From assembly GCF_008039615.1 (NCBI RefSeq), contig NZ_VDUZ01000077.1, positions 1 through 34,525 of the forward strand: a stretch of DNA of 34,525 nucleotides. The letters are read 5' to 3'. Source of the stretch: Vineibacter terrae (GTDB taxonomy: Bacteria > Pseudomonadota > Alphaproteobacteria > Reyranellales > Reyranellaceae). Below the pieces are notes generated by a model. It was not told where the DNA came from and ran no database searches. It saw only the letters and a program-made list of their open reading frames with translations. The position numbers were made by a program, and so were the translations under genes. Shown here piece by piece: positions 18,984 to 31,076 of the stretch; positions within the stretch are counted from its first letter, which is position 1; the number at the start of each line of letters is the position of its first letter.

Positions 18984-19406
18984 CTATCCGGTGGCCTGGC
19001 CAACCGACCAGTCCGTCGTTCTCAGTCCCGGGACGCGGTTGAACTCGTTGGCATTCGCCGTGACCAGGAGCGCCGCGCGGCGGCGTGCTTGTGCCGCGAT
19101 CAGGATGTCGTAGGGACCGATCGGCGTGCCAGCGCGCTCCGACTCGGCGCGTATCTCGCCGGCTTCCTGCGCATCCTCCGGCTCGAACGGCCACGGCGTC
19201 ACGTCGAGCGCCAGGAAGGTCGACAGCGCCGTGGCGTTGGCTTGCGGCTGGGCGCTCTTCTTGATGCCGTACCACAACTCATAGAGGACGATCGCGGATA
19301 TGCCGATGACCGTCCCCTCGACGAGAGCGGCCTGCAGCCGATGCCGGACCTCAGGCTTGCGGCCGTTGATGGCCGCGATGACGACGTTGGTGTCGAGGCA
19401 AATCAT
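18984..19406 (-). CDS. vapC: PIN domain toxin, VapC family
   Basis: This 140-residue PIN-domain ribonuclease is the toxin of a type II toxin-antitoxin pair. The acidic metal-binding residues are in place: D5 (MICLDTNVVI), E43 (SAIVLYELWYGI) and D100 (GPYDILIAAQA), with the usual C-terminal LVTANANEFNRVPGL and DW ending. The likely targets in the family are tRNA or rRNA. The start ATG at 19404-19406 overlaps the vapB stop by four bases, so the toxin is translated after the antitoxin. All conserved positions are present and the length is normal, so it looks functional, unlike the neighbouring higBA pair. Confidence 0.9.
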   Translation of the reverse strand: MICLDTNVVIAAINGRKPEVRHRLQAALVEGTVIGISAIVLYELWYGIKKSAQPQANATALSTFLALDVTPWPFEPEDAQEAGEIRAESERAGTPIGPYDILIAAQARRRAALLVTANANEFNRVPGLRTTDWSVGQATG

Positions 19407-19672
19407 TGGTCGAACGACACATCATCGTCGTCATCGGGCATTGGCGGCTGCTCGGGGCGGCCTTCAGGCAGGAAATCGGCGCCGCCCTGCCGGTCGAGCT
19501 CGGCGAAGATCGCCTCGATGTCCCGGGCATCCCGTTCCATCGGCTCCAGGAGCACGCCCAACCCCAGGCGTCGCACGCGCACTTCCTTGCCCGGGAGGCG
19601 GAACTCCTTGGGCAGGCGCACGGCCTGGCTGCGACCGTGCTTGAAGAGCTTCGCGATACCGGTTTCGGTCAC
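19403..19672 (-). CDS. vapB: AbrB-type antitoxin, VapB family
   Basis: This 89-residue protein has an N-terminal swapped-hairpin AbrB/MazE DNA-binding domain (IAKLFKHGRSQAVRLPKEFRLPG, then VRVRRLGLGVLLEP) and an acidic C-terminal toxin-binding tail ending in DDDDDVSFDQ. It should neutralise VapC and repress its own promoter. Translation starts at GTG 19670-19672, with a strong GGAGGA site five bases upstream. The gene overlaps vapC by four bases. Confidence 0.9.
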   Translation of the reverse strand: MTETGIAKLFKHGRSQAVRLPKEFRLPGKEVRVRRLGLGVLLEPMERDARDIEAIFAELDRQGGADFLPEGRPEQPPMPDDDDDVSFDQ

Positions 19673-19686
19673 GACTTCCTCCGGTA

Positions 19687-19705
19687 GATATTGAGGGTAT
19701 ATATC
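19687..19705 (-). promoter_or_regulatory. Putative vapBC operator/promoter
   Basis: Just upstream of the vapB ribosome binding site, an A/T-rich stretch has GATAT and ATATC half sites in inverted orientation around a GAGGG core, overlapping a TATATA sequence suitable as a -10 box. This is the expected place for autoregulation by VapB or the VapBC complex. Assigned by position and symmetry only. Confidence 0.35.
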
Positions 19706-19772
19706 AAAGAATGAAGAATGGGGGGAAGAATCTGGAAGGTACGGCCGGTGTGCCGCCCGCCGCGACGATGTC

Positions 19773-20551
19773 GTGACGGCAGATAACCTTGTCGTGCTGG
19801 GGCTGGCTGGCGGCTACCCCGAGGCGGCCAGCCGATCGGCCGAACGGCGGCGCCGGGATTGGGGGCGGTCGTATCTCGAAGCCGTGCTGACGCTCGACCT
19901 GCGCGATATCGCCGAGGTCGACCGCCTGGTCGAGCTGCCCCGGTTTGCGCGGCTCGTCGCCGAGCATGCTGGCCAGCTGGTGAACTACTCCCAGCTGGGC
20001 AACAGCATGGGCGTCACCTGCAAGACCAGCCAGTGCTACGCCGGCCTGATGGAGCAGATGTCCTGGTTGCCACGTTGCGGCCCTGGCACACCAACGCCAT
20101 CAAGCGCATCGTCAAGACGCCGAAGCTGCATTTCCTGGACTCTGGCCTGCTGGCGACAAGCCGCGGCGTGACGTTCGAACGGATCAGGAGAGATCGCTCC
20201 ATCCTGGGCGCCTTGCTCGAGAGCTTCGTGTTCGGGGAGATCATGAAGCTCGTGACGTGGTCGGACCTGCGGCCGACGCCGTACCACTTCCGCGACCAGG
20301 ACAGGAACAAGGTCGACATCGTGCTCGAACGCGATGACGGAACGATCGTCGGCATCGAGGTGAAGGCCAGCATCACGGTGAGAGCCACCGACTTCGCCGG
20401 CCTGCGAAAGCTGGCCGGCGCCTGCGGCTAGAGGTTCGCCTTCGGCGCCGTGCTGCATGACGGGGACACGATCGTACCGTTCGGCAAGCGACTTGCGGCG
20501 ATGCCGGTCTCCTGTCTGTGGAGTGGGTCGCCGACGCGACGCACGCGATAA
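19773..20551 (+). pseudogene. DUF4143 family ATPase, degenerate 3' part
   Basis: This is a remnant of a DUF4143 protein (an AAA+ ATPase followed by a DUF4143 nuclease-like domain). The frame from 19773 gives GGYPEAASR, the RDIAEVDRLVELPRFARLVAEHAG block and LVNYSQLGNSMGV. Near 20060 the match jumps to the next frame (LVATLRPWHTNAIKRIVKTPKLHFLDSGLLA ... FVFGEIMK ... NKVDIVLERDDGTIVGIEVKAS), consistent with loss of one base. A TAG at 20429-20431 interrupts the end, after which the family-typical tail continues (GAVLHDGDTIVPFGKRLAAMPVSCLW) to TAA at 20549-20551. The whole N-terminal ATPase domain is missing, since the vapBC promoter lies directly upstream. Three independent lesions make this clearly dead. 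Confidence 0.82.
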
Positions 20552-21275
20552 AATCCAAGATATGGGGCAGCCGTTTTTGATACCCCCTGTCGATATTTTC
20601 TTCAACGGATCACCCAGAGGTTTCGTAGCGACAGAGGGGTGCATTCTCGATGCGCTACGGATCTCGTTGACGAGTTTGATATCCGCCTTGCCGTGAGGCG
20701 TGCTCTGCTGAGTGCCAGGAAAACATCGCGCAAGGTATTGGCATGCATTTGCATATTTGTTAGTGTACTCTTCAAGAAGAACGCATAACGCATGCAACCG
20801 CTGGATGTTGATGCGATTGGGGAGCCAAATGTGCTGCGAATGCGCGACTGGGCCGCCGCTGGCGCAGCCATTAGATCGGGATCGTAGATCTCACAATTTT
20901 CATAGAACAGCGGTGGACGATCCACGGCGGTGTAACGTTTCTATGGTGCACCGCCCCAAGCCCACACGCCTCCTCAGTGGAAGATCGAAGTGACGCTCGG
21001 GTTGCGGTCACTGCCGGTTTGGAGCGATCGACCATTGGCAATGTGTCACGGGCTACCTTTGGATGCCCCGTGTCGCGGTGGTCTGGCTGAGTCGTCGCGG
21101 CCTGCACATGACAGCGCGAGACCTGGTTCCATTGGTCCGACCGTATCGGTTTGGCTCGATCAAGGTGTCTTCGGAATGAGGTGTCGTTGCCTTGGGCGCG
21201 CATGCACCCGGTTTGTAGCTTGGTGACGCGTCCTCCCGCTGAAGTCTCTGGGAAACGCAGCAGCCGTGGATGACC
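20552..21275. other. Low-GC stretch without recognisable genes
   Basis: These 724 bases separate the DUF4143 pseudogene from the cas3 fragment. The composition is less GC-rich than the chromosome on either side. Short open frames exist on both strands, for example minus 20602-20925 and plus 20990-21226, but none has a ribosome binding site or a sequence I recognise. A 31-codon frame at 20792-20887 is equally unsupported. I regard this as decayed mobile or defence-island DNA. Confidence 0.45.
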
Positions 21276-22898
21276 ATGAATTTTGAGACCTTTTTTTCTT
21301 CAGGGGCCGGCGGCAAAAAACCACGCCCGTACCAGGAGAGGCTCGCCGAGGAGGATTGGCCCGAGACACGTATCATACCGACCGGTTTCGGAAAAACTGC
21401 CGCGGTGCTTGCCGCCTGGCTTTGGAAGATCGGCAAGCGCGACCCGGGAACGCCTCAGCGGCTTATATATTGTCTTCCGATGCGAACACTGGTTGAGCAG
21501 ACAGAGGTCGCCGCGAAAGAGTGGATCGCCGCGGCGGAGAAGGCCTTTCCAGACCTTGCGCCGATTCATCTCGATGTGCTGATAGGCGGGCGGAGCAACG
21601 GGAGGCGACTCCCTGAATGGATGCTTCAACCCGAGCGGCCAGCTATCCTAATTGGGACACAAGACATGCTGGTCTCCGCCGCCCTGATGCGCGGGTATGG
21701 CGTCTCCCGCTATCGCTGGCCGGTGGATTTCGCCCTGCTGCATAATGGTACGCTGTGGGTTTTCGACGAAGTCCAGCTCATGGGTGCGGCACTTCCCACC
21801 TCGGCACAACTTCAAGAATTCCGACGCCGATTTGGTATGGCGCGCGAGTCCCGCACCTTGTGGATGTCGGCAACGCTCGATCCTTCCTGGCTGAAAACAG
21901 TGGATTTCACACCAGAGGACATAAGCCGCCAGCACGATCTGTCGCAGGCCGATCTTCATGAAGCGGGACATTTGTGGCGTGGCGTCAAGCGGCTCCACCG
22001 CTTGGACATGACTGCTTCACCCGCGTCCAGAGGTGATGGACTCACGAGGTACGCGGCCGAGCTTGCGGAACAAATCCACACCCTGGCTAAGCCGAGAACG
22101 AATACGATTGTGTTTCTCAATACAGTCGCACGTGCGCAGGCAGTTTTCGATGCTTTCAACAACAAAAGTCCTATCGGCGAGGCAATTCTCGTCCATTCCC
22201 GGTTCCGTAAGAAGGAACGGGATGAACGCATGGACGCACTGAAAAGCGAAACGCCATCGGCGGGAAGAGTTGTCATAACCACGCAGGCGTTGGAAGCCGG
22301 GATTGACGTGTCCTCGCGTGTGCTCATCACCGAGCTTGCCCCCTGGTCGTCACTCGTACAACGATTTGGGCGCTGCAATCGTTATGGCGAATGCGGCAGA
22401 GAGGGCGCGGATGTCTTCTGGGTCGACATGCCAGAACAGGAGGAAGCGCCTTATACCGCACAGGAGTTCGGGGAGGCGCGGGAGAAGCTGGAGCATCTTT
22501 CCGCATGCGGACCGGCTGACATCGCCGCTATTGCACCTTCCGCCCCGAAGCGGGGAGCAGTCATCCGGCGACGTGATGTGCTTGATCTCTATGACACCGA
22601 CCCGGACCTGTCCGGCTTTGATGTCGATGTGTCGCTCTACGTCCGTGATGCGAGCGATACCGATGTGCGGCTGTTCTGGCGCCACGTCGAGGAGGGGAAG
22701 GAGCCGGCATTCGATGCGCCTGCACCTGATCGAGCGGAGCTGTGCCCGGCGCCGATTGGCGGAGCAAAACAATTGCTCAGCCGCGCGGGCGTACGCGCCT
22801 GGGTATGGAACGGTCGGGAGCGGAGATGGCTCGGCATAGGCAAGACCGGCGTTTTCCCTGGGATGACTCTCTGGGTCGATAGGGCGTCAGGTGGTTAG
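21276..22898 (+). pseudogene. cas3: Cas3 helicase, type I-G (I-U)-like, C-terminally truncated
   Basis: This is the N-terminal 540 residues of a Cas3 DNA helicase, the enzyme that unwinds and degrades targets in type I CRISPR systems. Visible motifs are MNFETFF and PRPYQERLAE at the start, Walker A PTGFGKT (35-41), the DEVQ box (164-167), SAT (198-200), TTQALEAGIDVS (motif V) and VQRFGRCNR (motif VI, 362-370). These fit the I-G/I-U Cas3 form, where the nuclease HD domain follows the helicase. The frame stops at TAG 22896-22898 directly after PGMTLWVDRASGG, well short of the length of the family (roughly 850-950 residues), and no HD domain is found. The helicase core is complete, so a helicase-only protein could still be made, but target degradation by it is not expected. 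ATG 21270 is an alternative start. Confidence 0.85.
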
Positions 22899-23485: not shown

Positions 23486-23807
23486 ATAGCAATACTACTA
23501 TAGACGGGCAGGGCGTCAAGATCTGACAAGACTACCCATTCCATGCTGCCTTGCGCCCTTGGACTGTCGAACCAGCCGCTTCGTGCACGGTCGTTTGCTC
23601 GTTTCATTTGCACGAGAATGAGAGTACTATCACCTACCAATAGAAGCAAAGTGAAGTCACGTGAGGGGCTTCGGTCCCGCAAGGGGGGATTCACGTCATG
23701 GCCGTTGTCCACTGGCAGGCACGCCGGGCAGGGCGTGAAAGATTTGCGCGGGCAATAGACGTACTCGTTCACCATGCGCGCCGGCACACGTCGGCGCCCG
23801 GTGAGCC
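23486..23807. other. Intergenic region upstream of cas4-cas1
   Basis: No gene is supported in these 322 bases. A minus-strand open frame (23479-23817) contains a cas4-like peptide only because it reads the inverted 42-bp copy of cas4 at 23746-23787; the rest of it resembles nothing. The region should hold the promoter of cas4-cas1, but no clear -35/-10 pair is visible. From about 23790 the composition changes sharply to high GC. Confidence 0.5.
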
Positions 23808-25616
<1,809 letters not shown>

Positions 25617-25623
25617 GGCGGGC

Positions 25624-25917
25624 ATGGCGGACGAGCGGCTCTACATCATCGCCTACGACATCGCCGACAGCCGGCGCTGGCGGCGCGTGTTCAAGACCAT
25701 GCAGGGCTATGGCGAGTGGCTGCAGCTGTCGGTGTTCCAGTGCCGGCTGGCGCGCCGGCGCCGGGCCGAGCTGGAGACGCGGCTGCGCGAGCTGGTGAAG
25801 GCGGGCGAGGACCATGTGCTGATCATCGATGTCGGGCCGGCCGACCGGATCGCGCTGGCGATCGAGAGCATCGGCAAGAGCTTCGCGCGCGTCGAGCGGC
25901 AGGCGACGGTGATATAG
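25624..25917 (+). CDS. cas2: CRISPR-associated endoribonuclease/scaffold Cas2
   Basis: This 97-residue protein has the ferredoxin-like Cas2 fold: strand RLYIIAYDIADSRR with the conserved D12, helix RRVFKTMQGYGEWLQ, then LSVFQCRLARRRRAELETRLRELV and DHVLIIDVGPADR. Cas2 forms the core of the Cas1-Cas2 integration complex. The gap after cas4-cas1 is seven bases, and GAGGCGGG upstream serves as ribosome binding site, so the two genes form one transcript. It is followed directly by the array leader. Length and conserved residues are normal. Confidence 0.95.
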   Translation: MADERLYIIAYDIADSRRWRRVFKTMQGYGEWLQLSVFQCRLARRRRAELETRLRELVKAGEDHVLIIDVGPADRIALAIESIGKSFARVERQATVI

Positions 25918-26225
25918 CAGGGTGACTGGGCTGGGCTGGGCCTGGCCGAGCCGGCGGGGCAGGGCAGCTTCCGGCGAGGTCGGCGGTGGATCGGGCGGTG
26001 GCCTGTCGGTCCGTGGTCGACAGGCTGCCGGCGCGTTTCGAGCGGTCCAATGGCGCCGCCGGGGCGCAGACCGCTCGAAATATGATAACGTGTTGAGGAG
26101 GCTTGGGTATTGGACATCGTGAATACGCATCGCCAGCAAACGTCTCGCCGGTTCTCGCCGGCTGTCGGGGACCGCTCGAAAACGTCGGCCGGACGGAAGC
26201 TGGCTCAAGGGCTTGCGGACCGGCC
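25918..26225 (+). promoter_or_regulatory. CRISPR leader
   Basis: These 308 noncoding bases separate cas2 from the first repeat. They contain a 12-bp inverted repeat (TTTCGAGCGGTC 26036-26047 with GACCGCTCGAAA 26069-26080) followed at once by TATGAT (26081-26086), a good -10 box. A third copy, GACCGCTCGAAA, is at 26170-26181, 44 bases before the first repeat. That this end is the leader is supported by the terminal repeat mutation at the far end and by the adjoining adaptation genes. Array transcription is inferred to run left to right. Confidence 0.75.
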
Positions 26226-29200
26226 CTCTCCGAGGCTGAAGAGCCTCGGCCTCATTGAAGATTCGTAGTTGGTACGAGTGTCATTCCACCGACCGATGCT
26301 CTCCGAGGCTGAAGAGCCTCGGCCTCATTGAAGACGGCGAGCAGATGCGCTCGATGACGGATGAGGTGGACCGCCTCTCCGAGGCTGAAGAGCCTCGGCC
26401 TCATTGAAGACGCGTTCGGCAGGGACGTTCCGTTGCCGGCTGGCGACTCTCCGAGGCTGAAGAGCCTCGGCCTCATTGAAGACGGTCCGGCCCTGGCCGA
26501 AGCGGCGGTGCGCCAGCATCCCTCTCCGAGGCTGAAGAGCCTCGGCCTCATTGAAGACCCGCGGGCACGGCTCAAGGCGTCGTCGATCTCACCTCTCCGA
26601 GGCTGAAGAGCCTCGGCCTCATTGAAGAGAGGGCGTCGGTGGCTGGACGTTTCTATACCGGGCGCCTCTCCGAGGCTGAAGAGCCTCGGCCTCATTGAAG
26701 AGGACGCGTCCTCGCCGCAGCAGATGCCATTCGTGCCCTCTCCGAGGCTGAAGAGCCTCGGCCTCATTGAAGAACGGGATCTTCTGGCGCTCGATATGGC
26801 GAAGAAAGAGCTCTCCGAGGCTGAAGAGCCTCGGCCTCATTGAAGAAAGTACCGCGATGCGCTCGACGGTCATGGAACTACGCTCTCCGAGGCTGAAGAG
26901 CCTCGGCCTCATTGAAGACCCGGCGATCGCGGTGGCGCATACGCTGCGCGCTTCCTCTCCGAGGCTGAAGAGCCTCGGCCTCATTGAAGAAACGCCGCGG
27001 CGGACAACTGGCGCGATGCCTACCGCGCTCTCCGAGGCTGAAGAGCCTCGGCCTCATTGAAGACGCAGCCAGCCGCGCAAGATCGGCGGCGTTCTCCGCC
27101 TCTCCGAGGCTGAAGAGCCTCGGCCTCATTGAAGAACCATTAGGTACTGACGCGGCACATCGGTTGGCGTCGTCTCTCCGAGGCTGAAGAGCCTCGGCCT
27201 CATTGAAGAATCAGCGCGACTATAAATGGCTGATGCGCGGTCAAGACTCTCCGAGGCTGAAGAGCCTCGGCCTCATTGAAGAGCGGTGGCGGCTCCGGTG
27301 GCGGCCTCGGTAGCCTGCTTCTCTCCGAGGCTGAAGAGCCTCGGCCTCATTGAAGAACGGATATGCCACTCGTGAACATGGCGTCATAGACGTTCTCTCC
27401 GAGGCTGAAGAGCCTCGGCCTCATTGAAGAGAGGCCCATATCAAGCCACACCTTGGCCATCGGCCGGTGGCTCTCCGAGGCTGAAGAGCCTCGGCCTCAT
27501 TGAAGACTGGTCGTGCCCTTGCCAGGCTTGCCGTCCTTGTCGCCGCTCTCCGAGGCTGAAGAGCCTCGGCCTCATTGAAGATGTGGGCAACAAGGAGTCT
27601 GGATGCCGAGGGCGGCGCGACTCTCCGAGGCTGAAGAGCCTCGGCCTCATTGAAGATTCGTCGTCGACAGGTTCGTTCTCGTCGACAACAGCTCTCCGAG
27701 GCTGAAGAGCCTCGGCCTCATTGAAGATTCTCCGCGTCGCGCTCTTCCCTGCCGTAGAAGAAGGCTCTCCGAGGCTGAAGAGCCTCGGCCTCATTGAAGA
27801 TCAAGCTGGTTGCTGACGAGCCCACACTACGCTGGGCTCTCCGAGGCTGAAGAGCCTCGGCCTCATTGAAGAGCCGCTGCGGCCGGCGAAGTGCCCTCGC
27901 CTGGGGAACGGCTCTCCGAGGCTGAAGAGCCTCGGCCTCATTGAAGATTGCCGATGGCGCGATAGTGGCGAGCGTAGTCCGCGTGCCTCTCCGAGGCTGA
28001 AGAGCCTCGGCCTCATTGAAGACCAGATCGCCAGCGAATTCGAGTATATCGAACGTGGACTCTCCGAGGCTGAAGAGCCTCGGCCTCATTGAAGAGCATC
28101 CTTGTTTCGGCTTCATTCCTTTCGGCAGCACGCTCTCCGAGGCTGAAGAGCCTCGGCCTCATTGAAGAGGCTATTGTCGCGCGGCCGTTCGACAAGCTTC
28201 TGGACTCTCCGAGGCTGAAGAGCCTCGGCCTCATTGAAGAGTTCGCGTGGCATCCGGTGAGAACAGGTAAGCGGGAGCTCTCCGAGGCTGAAGAGCCTCG
28301 GCCTCATTGAAGAGCGCGCCACGGCAGCCGCGAGGAGCTGATCAAACATGCTCTCCGAGGCTGAAGAGCCTCGGCCTCATTGAAGAGCGCCATCAGGGAG
28401 GACGACATGGCCAAGAAGAAGCTCTCCGAGGCTGAAGAGCCTCGGCCTCATTGAAGGCTTAAGGTCCTTGTCCCCGCTGACGATAACCATGTCCTCTCCG
28501 AGGCTGAAGAGCCTCGGCCTCATTGAAGGCAGGCTTGGCACGACGGACCGCGGCAGCCATGGCTTCTCTCCGAGGCTGAAGAGCCTCGGCCTCATTGAAG
28601 GACTCACTTCTTCGTGGAGCTTGTTGATGAGTGCGAGACTCTCCGAGGCTGAAGAGCCTCGGCCTCATTGAAGGTAGAGGAAGTCCTGAAGAGCTCCGGC
28701 CACGCGGTCAAGCTCTCCGAGGCTGAAGAGCCTCGGCCTCATTGAAGGCTGGCTGATATCGCGGAACTGCTGGCGCATGCCGACAAGCTCTCCGAGGCTG
28801 AAGAGCCTCGGCCTCATTGAAGGAAGCGAGCCGGCTTCGACGCGATCGACTCTGGCCGTCTCTCCGAGGCTGAAGAGCCTCGGCCTCATTGAAGGCGAGC
28901 GCAGCATCCATGTGACGGCGCCGCAATCGACACGCTCTCCGAGGCTGAAGAGCCTCGGCCTCATTGAAGGCTAAAGACCCCAATAGACTTCAACAAATCT
29001 TGCAAACTCTCCGAGGCTGAAGAGCCTCGGCCTCATTGAAGGGGTCGGTACTGACACTTCGGCTCCGGACACTCTTGGCTCTCCGAGGCTGAAGAGCCTC
29101 GGCCTCATTGAAGGTCAGCCAGCGTGGGGCGCTTTGCCTTTGCCATTTTGCTCTCCGAGGCTGAAGAGCCTCGGCCTCATTGAAGGGACCAAAGCGTGGG

Positions 29201-29585
29201 ATCGCCTGCTGGACTCTTTGGCGCTCTCCGAGGCTGAAGAGCCTCGGCCTCATTGAAGGAGGTCGATCGCCGTGATGTGGCCCCCGGCGCGTGCGCTCTC
29301 CGAGGCTGAAGAGCCTCGGCCTCATTGAAGGCACTTCTTGCCGTTGACACGGGACTGCAGCTGCTCGCTCTCCGAGGCTGAAGAGCCTCGGCCTCATTGA
29401 AGGAGGTAGTCGCCGCGCATCGTCGATGTCAGTTGCTGCTCTCCGAGGCTGAAGAGCCTCGGCCTCATTGAAGGATCGAAATGGCACGTGATCAAATCCG
29501 CCTCGGGCGCGCTCTCCGAGGCTGAAGAGCCTCGGCCTCATTGAAGGGCCGGCATCGCGGCGACCGGCTGCACGCCGACCGTGAT

Positions 29586-29621
29586 CTCTCCGAGCCTGAA
29601 GAGCCTCGGCCTCATTGAAGG
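29586..29621 (+). repeat. Variant CRISPR repeat 47
   Basis: Base 10 is C instead of G, giving CCGAGC in place of CCGAGG. This breaks one pair in the centre of the predicted 7-bp stem, since its partner C19 is unchanged. Confidence 0.9.
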
Positions 29622-31040
29622 AGACCCTTGGCGTCCTCGAGGTTGGCGCCCGCGAGGTTCTCTCCGAGGCTGAAGAGCCTCGGCCTCATTGAAGGGTCGG
29701 CGCTTCGATCTCGATCCCAACGAAATGGTCAAGCTCTCCGAGGCTGAAGAGCCTCGGCCTCATTGAAGGGCAGCGGGCACCTATAAGCCCGTGCCGTGGA
29801 CTAGCACTCTCCGAGGCTGAAGAGCCTCGGCCTCATTGAAGGTTTGCGACGTCCGACAACGGCCCCATGCCGGCCAAGTCTCTCCGAGGCTGAAGAGCCT
29901 CGGCCTCATTGAAGGCTGACCAAGCACGGAACCCGGGCTGTGACCCTGCCGCTCTCCGAGGCTGAAGAGCCTCGGCCTCATTGAAGGAAGGCTGGCGCGT
30001 ACCTGGGCGGCGCGGACCTGGGCGCTCTCCGAGGCTGAAGAGCCTCGGCCTCATTGAAGGGGGGTCGCGCCTCCGCTGTATGACGCCAGAAACAATCGCT
30101 CTCCGAGGCTGAAGAGCCTCGGCCTCATTGAAGGCCTCCAAGAAAGGCGCGGGTGACCATGGCGGGGCGGGCTCTCCGAGGCTGAAGAGCCTCGGCCTCA
30201 TTGAAGGCCACCGCCTCCCGGCTCTGGTCGAGGTTGGCGCGAGCTCTCCGAGGCTGAAGAGCCTCGGCCTCATTGAAGCATCGTTGATGGCGCGCTCAAC
30301 ATGGATGATGTCATCCTCTCCGAGGCTGAAGAGCCTCGGCCTCATTGAAGCATGTCGGCGACCGTACGGGTGCCGCTGCGGCCGGTTCCTCTCCGAGGCT
30401 GAAGAGCCTCGGCCTCATTGAAGCCTGGTCGACGTGCTGTTCTTTATCTGCCAGCCATCCGCTCTCCGAGGCTGAAGAGCCTCGGCCTCATTGAAGCAGG
30501 TCTTCCTGTCTTTTGCTAGGATGCCACCAACTACTCTCCGAGGCTGAAGAGCCTCGGCCTCATTGAAGCCGAACCGCTCCAAGTCATCCCACCATTGAGT
30601 CCGAGCTCTCCGAGGCTGAAGAGCCTCGGCCTCATTGAAGCGTCGACGACGTCGCCGTGCCCCTCGCCGGGACCGGGCTCTCCGAGGCTGAAGAGCCTCG
30701 GCCTCATTGAAGCTCGTGGCGTTCCGCTCGCCGGTGCACTCACTTTTCCGCTCTCCGAGGCTGAAGAGCCTCGGCCTCATTGAAGCATGATCGAGGCCAG
30801 ATCGGCGAGCACCTGCTGGCGGCTCTCCGAGGCTGAAGAGCCTCGGCCTCATTGAAGCACCCGCGATGAGATCGCCACCCACTTGCCGCGCGCCCTCTCC
30901 GAGGCTGAAGAGCCTCGGCCTCATTGAAGCGCAGGAGATTCCGGGTTGCCACTTTGAGTTTAACGGCGACTCTCCGAGGCTGAAGAGCCTCGGCCTCATT
31001 GAAGCCAATTCTACTCCAACAACAATCTGTCTCCAGTCTC

Positions 31041-31076
31041 CTCTCCAAGGCTGAAGAGCCTTGGCCTCATTGAAGC
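31041..31076 (+). repeat. Terminal CRISPR repeat with paired substitutions
   Basis: The last, oldest repeat reads CTCTCCAAGG at its start and CCTTGG in its right arm. Base 7 is A rather than G and base 22 is T rather than C. These two bases pair with each other in the stem, so a G-C pair has become A-U. The 36th base is C. Confidence 0.9.

Follow-up and report, generated by a model that had tools for sequence, protein, structure and literature searches.

Two ways in which the repeats of a clustered regularly interspaced short palindromic repeats (CRISPR) array come to differ are already known, namely the propagation of repeat changes and, in type I-E systems, repeat ends derived from the protospacer-adjacent motif (PAM). 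According to sections of the CRISPRDetect paper (PMC4869251), once the leader-proximal repeat has changed, every repeat made later inherits the change, and in parts of Swarts et al. (2012; PMC3338789) it is the final base of the type I-E repeat that stands out and may vary among repeats. Passages of Vink et al. (PMC8482600) state that the PAM at position –1 is unpredictable from the repeat and that –1 matches are frequent only in types I-C and I-E. Regarding the integration reaction itself, portions of Kim et al. (2019; PMC6895254) deal with ruler-guided second-site integration in type II-A, in which position 36 is the spacer-side attack site and altered repeats lead to mis-sited events, while for Methanosarcina type I-G an excerpt of a further study (PMC10504553) gives, with processed prespacers, correct integration in 60–70% at the spacer side and in 80–90% at the leader side. 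Here, a type I-G array of Vineibacter terrae was analyzed, placed at positions 26226-31076 of contig NZ_VDUZ01000077.1 (C77), which in its entire length of 34,525 nucleotides (nt) is referred to as the window and belongs to a genome of 8.76 Mb in 135 contigs. With a probability of roughly two in three, the repeat ends of this array log rare errors of spacer integration.

Block changes at the last repeat base

The array comprises 67 repeats, located by script, which have in common a 35-base core, CTCTCCGAGGCTGAAGAGCCTCGGCCTCATTGAAG. Its leader is on the left, next to the end of cas2 at 25917, and its degenerate terminal repeat is on the right; the leader region from cas2 to repeat 1 (25918-26225, + strand) was assigned by position only. 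Counted from the leader side, base 36 is A in the 30 repeats 1–30 (26226-28386), G in the 25 repeats 31–55 (28422-30207) and C in the 12 repeats 56–67 (30244-31076), all on the + strand and with no mixing, an arrangement that would have a probability of about 10^–27 if the same composition were placed in random order. Location of the repeats by script confirmed in this way the three clean blocks that an earlier note on this DNA had described. The A/G border is occupied by spacer 30 (35 nt; 28387-28421, + strand), the transition spacer of the G to A change, and the G/C border by spacer 55 (36 nt; 30208-30243, + strand), that of the C to G change. The core sequence is the same in the A, G and C blocks, and differences outside base 36 were found in two repeats only: repeat 47, with an isolated inner G>C change at position 10 within the G block, and the terminal variant, repeat 67 (31041-31076), in which G>A at position 7 and C>T at position 22 are compensatory and keep the stem pair. 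A genome-wide check found the repeat of this array nowhere else in the genome, and it was absent from three other genomes of the genus.

The new base of each change is present in every repeat between that change and the leader, which supports the proposal of the earlier note that base 36 is inherited from the leader-proximal template repeat. Its reading of the blocks as age layers of spacers, with C the oldest, then G and then A the youngest, is supported as well, and this order was backed externally by the second-oldest repeat, whose last base is C in 63 of the 67 arrays or segments compared.

This comparative set was obtained by a contig scan with an alignment of five Cas4-Cas1 proteins, from which the best 80 of 185 relatives were kept; arrays near those relatives, together with arrays from plasmids and other genomes, made up the 67 arrays or segments, with the array L061 treated apart. 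Among the entries, L075, L123 and L128 represent segments of one array, and L067, L068 and L070 are closely related. A search of the phylum for Csb1, which found it in 5 of 398 genomes, added two more usable arrays, neither with a switch. The majority last base was C in 58 of the arrays or segments, G in five, T in three and A in one. Block switches at the last base occurred in six arrays, those of the window, L044 (runs of G107 C10), L094 (G75 C4), L059 (T12 C2, a switch that appears when only the oldest repeat is dropped), L051 (T2 G6 C1) and L084 (T73 C3 G3, then C), with the single deviating terminal repeats of L052, L122, L128, L047 and L056 left out of the tally. There were ten last-base changes in all, five of them C>G, two C>T and one each G>A, G>T and G>C; the changes out of C accordingly went five times to G, twice to T and never to A. 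At position 15 of L084 there is also an inner block, A>G>A across six repeats, whose borders are not those of the last-base blocks.

Isolated and block changes were counted in 55 arrays of six or more repeats, comprising 1537 repeats after the two oldest of each array had been dropped, with the exclusion of L061 for its register shift, of arrays under six repeats and of repeats with more than four mismatches. This count supersedes an earlier one (52 arrays, 1525 repeats, seven inner isolated changes), whose boundary rule clipped columns of short arrays. The last base showed eight block changes and no isolated one, against nine isolated differences and no block at the first base, which was defined by within-array conservation and hence softly. 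The nine fell in five arrays (three each in L084 and L062, one each in L059, L065 and L086), those of L062 being at its old end, and a tenth was seen in L087, where only four repeats were counted. At the inner positions, of which there are about 33 in each array, 12 isolated differences were counted, together with one internal block, the one in L084. Per position, block changes were therefore about 130 times commoner at the last base than inside, and isolated changes about 25 times commoner at the first base than inside. Fisher tests by events gave 4e-5 for first versus last and 1.4e-4 for inner versus last, events within an array not being independent, and the test by arrays gave 0.008 for first versus last.

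Proposed integration errors and rival explanations

Because the last base changed in blocks only and the first base in isolated copies only, we infer that the error arises at integration. A new spacer would enter beside the leader, the old bottom strand staying with the new leader-proximal repeat, with its spacer-side end joined to the prespacer, and the old top strand going with the older repeat. A one-base displacement of the spacer-side joint would replace the new repeat's last base, most simply by a putative prespacer base, and the altered repeat, being the template for every later insertion, would hand the change on as a block. An error at the leader-side joint would change the older copy, at its first base, and would stay isolated, since that copy is not used as a template again. 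Owing to this strand topology, spacer-side errors would be remembered and leader-side errors forgotten. Two such events would have made the three layers, C to G about 55 insertions ago and G to A about 30 ago, if deletions are ignored. We propose more tentatively that in about one of 150 to 200 type I-G acquisitions the spacer-side joint is put one base off and the next template thereby receives a prespacer base, so that arrays would amount to a heritable error log of the integrase, kept here possibly by a system that continues with adaptation but no interference.

Further support comes from L061 (L061:9250-11174), which has a register shift of about six bases at its leader end. TTGAAGC is the end of its repeats 13–26, one change in repeat 13 aside; the start of repeats 1–11 lies earlier by about six bases, within leader-like sequence, and their end is CCTCATT or CCTCATC; repeat 12 is a hinge that has both ends. 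The new end base switched as a block too, with T in repeats 9–11 and C in repeats 1–8. A shift was thus followed by a block change at the new end, and the lability therefore tracks the junction and not the sequence. Over the same interval, repeats with T and repeats with A at the centre of the stem-loop are interspersed, and the two forms, CTTTAAG and CTTAAAG, are each other's reverse complement, as though the loop had been turned around.

The earlier note had attributed the blocks to two successive mutations of the template. The inheritance from the template that it assumed is supported; ordinary mutation as the source is doubtful, since the last base shows only inherited changes, unlike simulated arrays. 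On that account, two ordinary point mutations would have hit the last base of the leader-proximal repeat, functionally unconstrained, and would have been copied on. Clean blocks would result, the last base is unpaired and adjoins the spacer, and it is accepted that repeat changes propagate, as sections of the CRISPRDetect paper indicate (PMC4869251). However, older repeats should be hit as well. In a simulation of random mutation, with every copy free to mutate at all times (five rates, 300 runs), the setting tuned to 8.2 block changes left 34.8 isolated ones, that is, about 35 isolated last-base changes would be expected for eight blocks, with none seen, and 0 of the 300 runs gave eight or more blocks with none isolated. 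The inner positions present the opposite picture, with their 12 isolated changes to a single block. Moreover, C>G accounts for five of the seven changes from C (p 0.0002 with C>G assumed to be one change in ten, and 0.045 under equal choice), and changes out of C that never go to A are odd for ordinary mutation. A captured random base suits the ten changes better. These observations, taken together, make ordinary mutation an unlikely source of the blocks.

If base 36 came instead from the PAM of each spacer, as in Escherichia coli type I-E, the preferred PAM would have changed twice. Parts of Swarts et al. report such dependence on the spacer for the last base in E. coli K-12 (PMC3338789), and the C-ending arrays agree with a TTC flank at –1, which was found for two Cereibacter spacers. 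Against this, spacer 4 of the A block (26483-26521, + strand) matches the host chromosome over 39/39 bases at C9:157583-157621, within a response-regulator-like gene, with the flank CTGCTTTC (TTC, C at –1). Spacers 12 and 81 of L044, where the repeat ends in G, have flanks that end in TTC and likewise C at –1, these being both of the L044 matches with such a flank, and three Rhodothermus spacers (repeat ending in G) that match phage RM378 have C, T and T at –1. Since the TTC flank was found for A-ending and G-ending repeats, base 36 is not PAM-derived in the testable cases; the PAM is likely TTC regardless of the repeat end, and the alternative raised in the earlier note, that the base belongs to the individual spacer, fails against these protospacers. 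Among ten matches of at least 85% identity from repeats not ending in C, the base at –1 equals the repeat base in three (spacers 30 and 42 of the window and 63 of L044), and in none of the three with a TTC flank. In addition, the E. coli K-12 array (L121) reads GTGGGGAGT, with interspersed last bases, unlike the blocks of the window, and a PAM origin is scarcely credible here. It is also very improbable that the leader-side part of the array was exchanged with an array of a different repeat end. The A>G>A block of L084, with borders distinct from those of the last base, would accord with such an exchange; however, the repeat of the window occurs in only one array of the genome, the core is identical in all three blocks, and two swaps would be needed, each with an array differing at one base only. 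Selection for each new end base, for example through recognition of the CRISPR RNA (crRNA) handle or escape from an inhibitor, would agree only with the location of the changed base, at the end of the crRNA handle, but it is hardly tenable given that the changes run in several directions and also reverse (C>G>C>T in L084) and that effector genes were not found in this genome.

Several points weigh against the reading of the repeat ends as a log of integration errors. No last-base change was seen in 49 of the 55 arrays (terminal two repeats dropped, L059 counted in), and two of the ten changes, in L059 and L051, hinge on the one or two final repeats. The set includes arrays from metagenome assemblies and, in a few cases, pieces of a single array or close relatives, and position 15 of L084 is an example of an inherited change inside the repeat. 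Furthermore, no protospacer of a transition spacer was accepted from the viral-contig scans and genome searches, and although capture predicts one base less, the transition spacers show no clear reduction in length (mean z –0.31, n=10).

Regarding the searches for protospacers, the phage search gave no match for the window array, the L084 array or the first 7901 bases of the L044 array, and the plasmid search with the window array gave matches in 5 records, running along the repeats. Exact pieces of 21 to 25 bases had 0 matches in eight scans of viral contigs, which took in window spacers 30 and 55 (the latter twice), L044 spacer 107, L084 spacers 73 and 79, L094 spacer 75 and L059 spacer 12, and left out L084 spacer 76 and L051 spacers 2 and 8. 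In 76 genomes of the order, searched non-exhaustively with few candidates scored per genome, the transition spacers had a single match, that of spacer 30 to a same-genus genome (30/35 bases, with the new base, A, at –1), which was judged to be due to chance and rejected, as it had no TTC flank and its 20-base shared stretch lies over a gene start. Neighbouring spacers did not share their first bases above expectation (378 of 1412, with 408 expected).

The cas genes and the state of interference

Upstream of the array, on the + strand, are cas3, the cas4-cas1 fusion and cas2, for which type I-G models were the top matches. The cas3 gene (21270-22898) encodes the helicase part of Cas3g in 542 amino acids (aa) and ends before the HD nuclease part; it is followed by cas4-cas1 (23808-25616; Cas1g with a Cas4 domain, E 5.6e-177 for Cas1g) and cas2 (25624-25917; Cas2g, E 2.3e-30). 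The alignment of the window Cas3 reaches residue 469 in a 733-aa reading of the L044 Cas3 (about 552 in an 816-aa reading), and the HD part of the latter starts near 597, beyond the aligned region. In the relative L044 the gene order is cas3, cas8g, csb1, csb2 and then cas4-cas1, and in the window the gap from cas3 to cas4-cas1 is only about 900 bases, without the usual effector genes in between. The PF09617 profile for Csb1 (Cas7) had no match in the genome, the same profile being positive in three of four other genomes searched alongside. A profile search found no Cas8g (Csx17) in the genome either, a weaker result, as this profile was positive in two of the four others and missed two genomes that hold Csb1, and protein searches of the genome for Cas8g and Csb2, run without a positive control, found none.

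Since Csb1 and Cas8g were not found and Cas3 ends before its HD part, interference was probably lost in this genome, although assembly gaps could hide genes. For the same reason, the suggestion of the earlier note that the three blocks give three working types of crRNA handle is not supported, the effector genes having not been found. With a TTC PAM, moreover, the repeat ends AGA, AGG and AGC would each already mismatch at –3 and –2. Because spacer 4 is a perfect self match with the inferred PAM and has three younger spacers in front of it, the array suggests that insertion continued in a cell no longer acting on the spacer 4 target.

Other features were observed around the cas genes and elsewhere in the genome. 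An inverted fragment resembling the start of Cas4 lies on the minus strand at 23689-23787, just upstream of cas4-cas1, and is possibly a deletion scar. At 18984-20431, a PIN-domain gene adjoins an apparently frame-broken DUF4143 protein. A second CRISPR with a different repeat, GTCGCTCCCCGTGCGGGAGCGTGGATCGAAAC, was found in another contig of the genome (L119; C92:4394-6048), with 22 copies on one strand and four on the other and with two adjacent spacers that are similar in the part shown.

Comparison with known systems

If the proposed origin of the blocks is true, natural arrays could be read as a record of integration fidelity, which is otherwise measured in vitro, and they would offer a genomic test for the strand topology of Cas1-Cas2 integration and put spacer layers in order. 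It would also draw a line between systems in which the last repeat base is copied, as in type I-G here, and systems in which the PAM supplies it, as in type I-E. Furthermore, an apparently interference-dead system with a young and perfect self-targeting spacer would represent a natural case of adaptation without immunity.

Type I-G systems (formerly I-U) with a Cas4-Cas1 fusion have much in common with this locus, which has the fusion, Cas2 and the Cas3g helicase, a repeat ending in CCTCATTGAAG, spacers of 35–40 nt and a TTC flank at the self target. The system of the window differs in that searches of the genome yielded neither Csb1 nor Cas8g, Cas3 lacks the HD part and base 36 varies in blocks. 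In the part of the literature examined, no report of inherited changes confined to the spacer-side base was found. With respect to the propagated repeat mutations treated in sections of the CRISPRDetect paper (PMC4869251), the inherited changes here lie almost only at the spacer-side last base and come without the isolated changes of mutation. The repeat-mutant experiments in type II-A, in the portions of Kim et al. cited above (PMC6895254), record no inherited one-base changes. Finally, the last base of type I-E, as described in parts of Swarts et al. (PMC3338789), follows the spacer and is not passed on, whereas that of the window follows its place in the array and is passed on.

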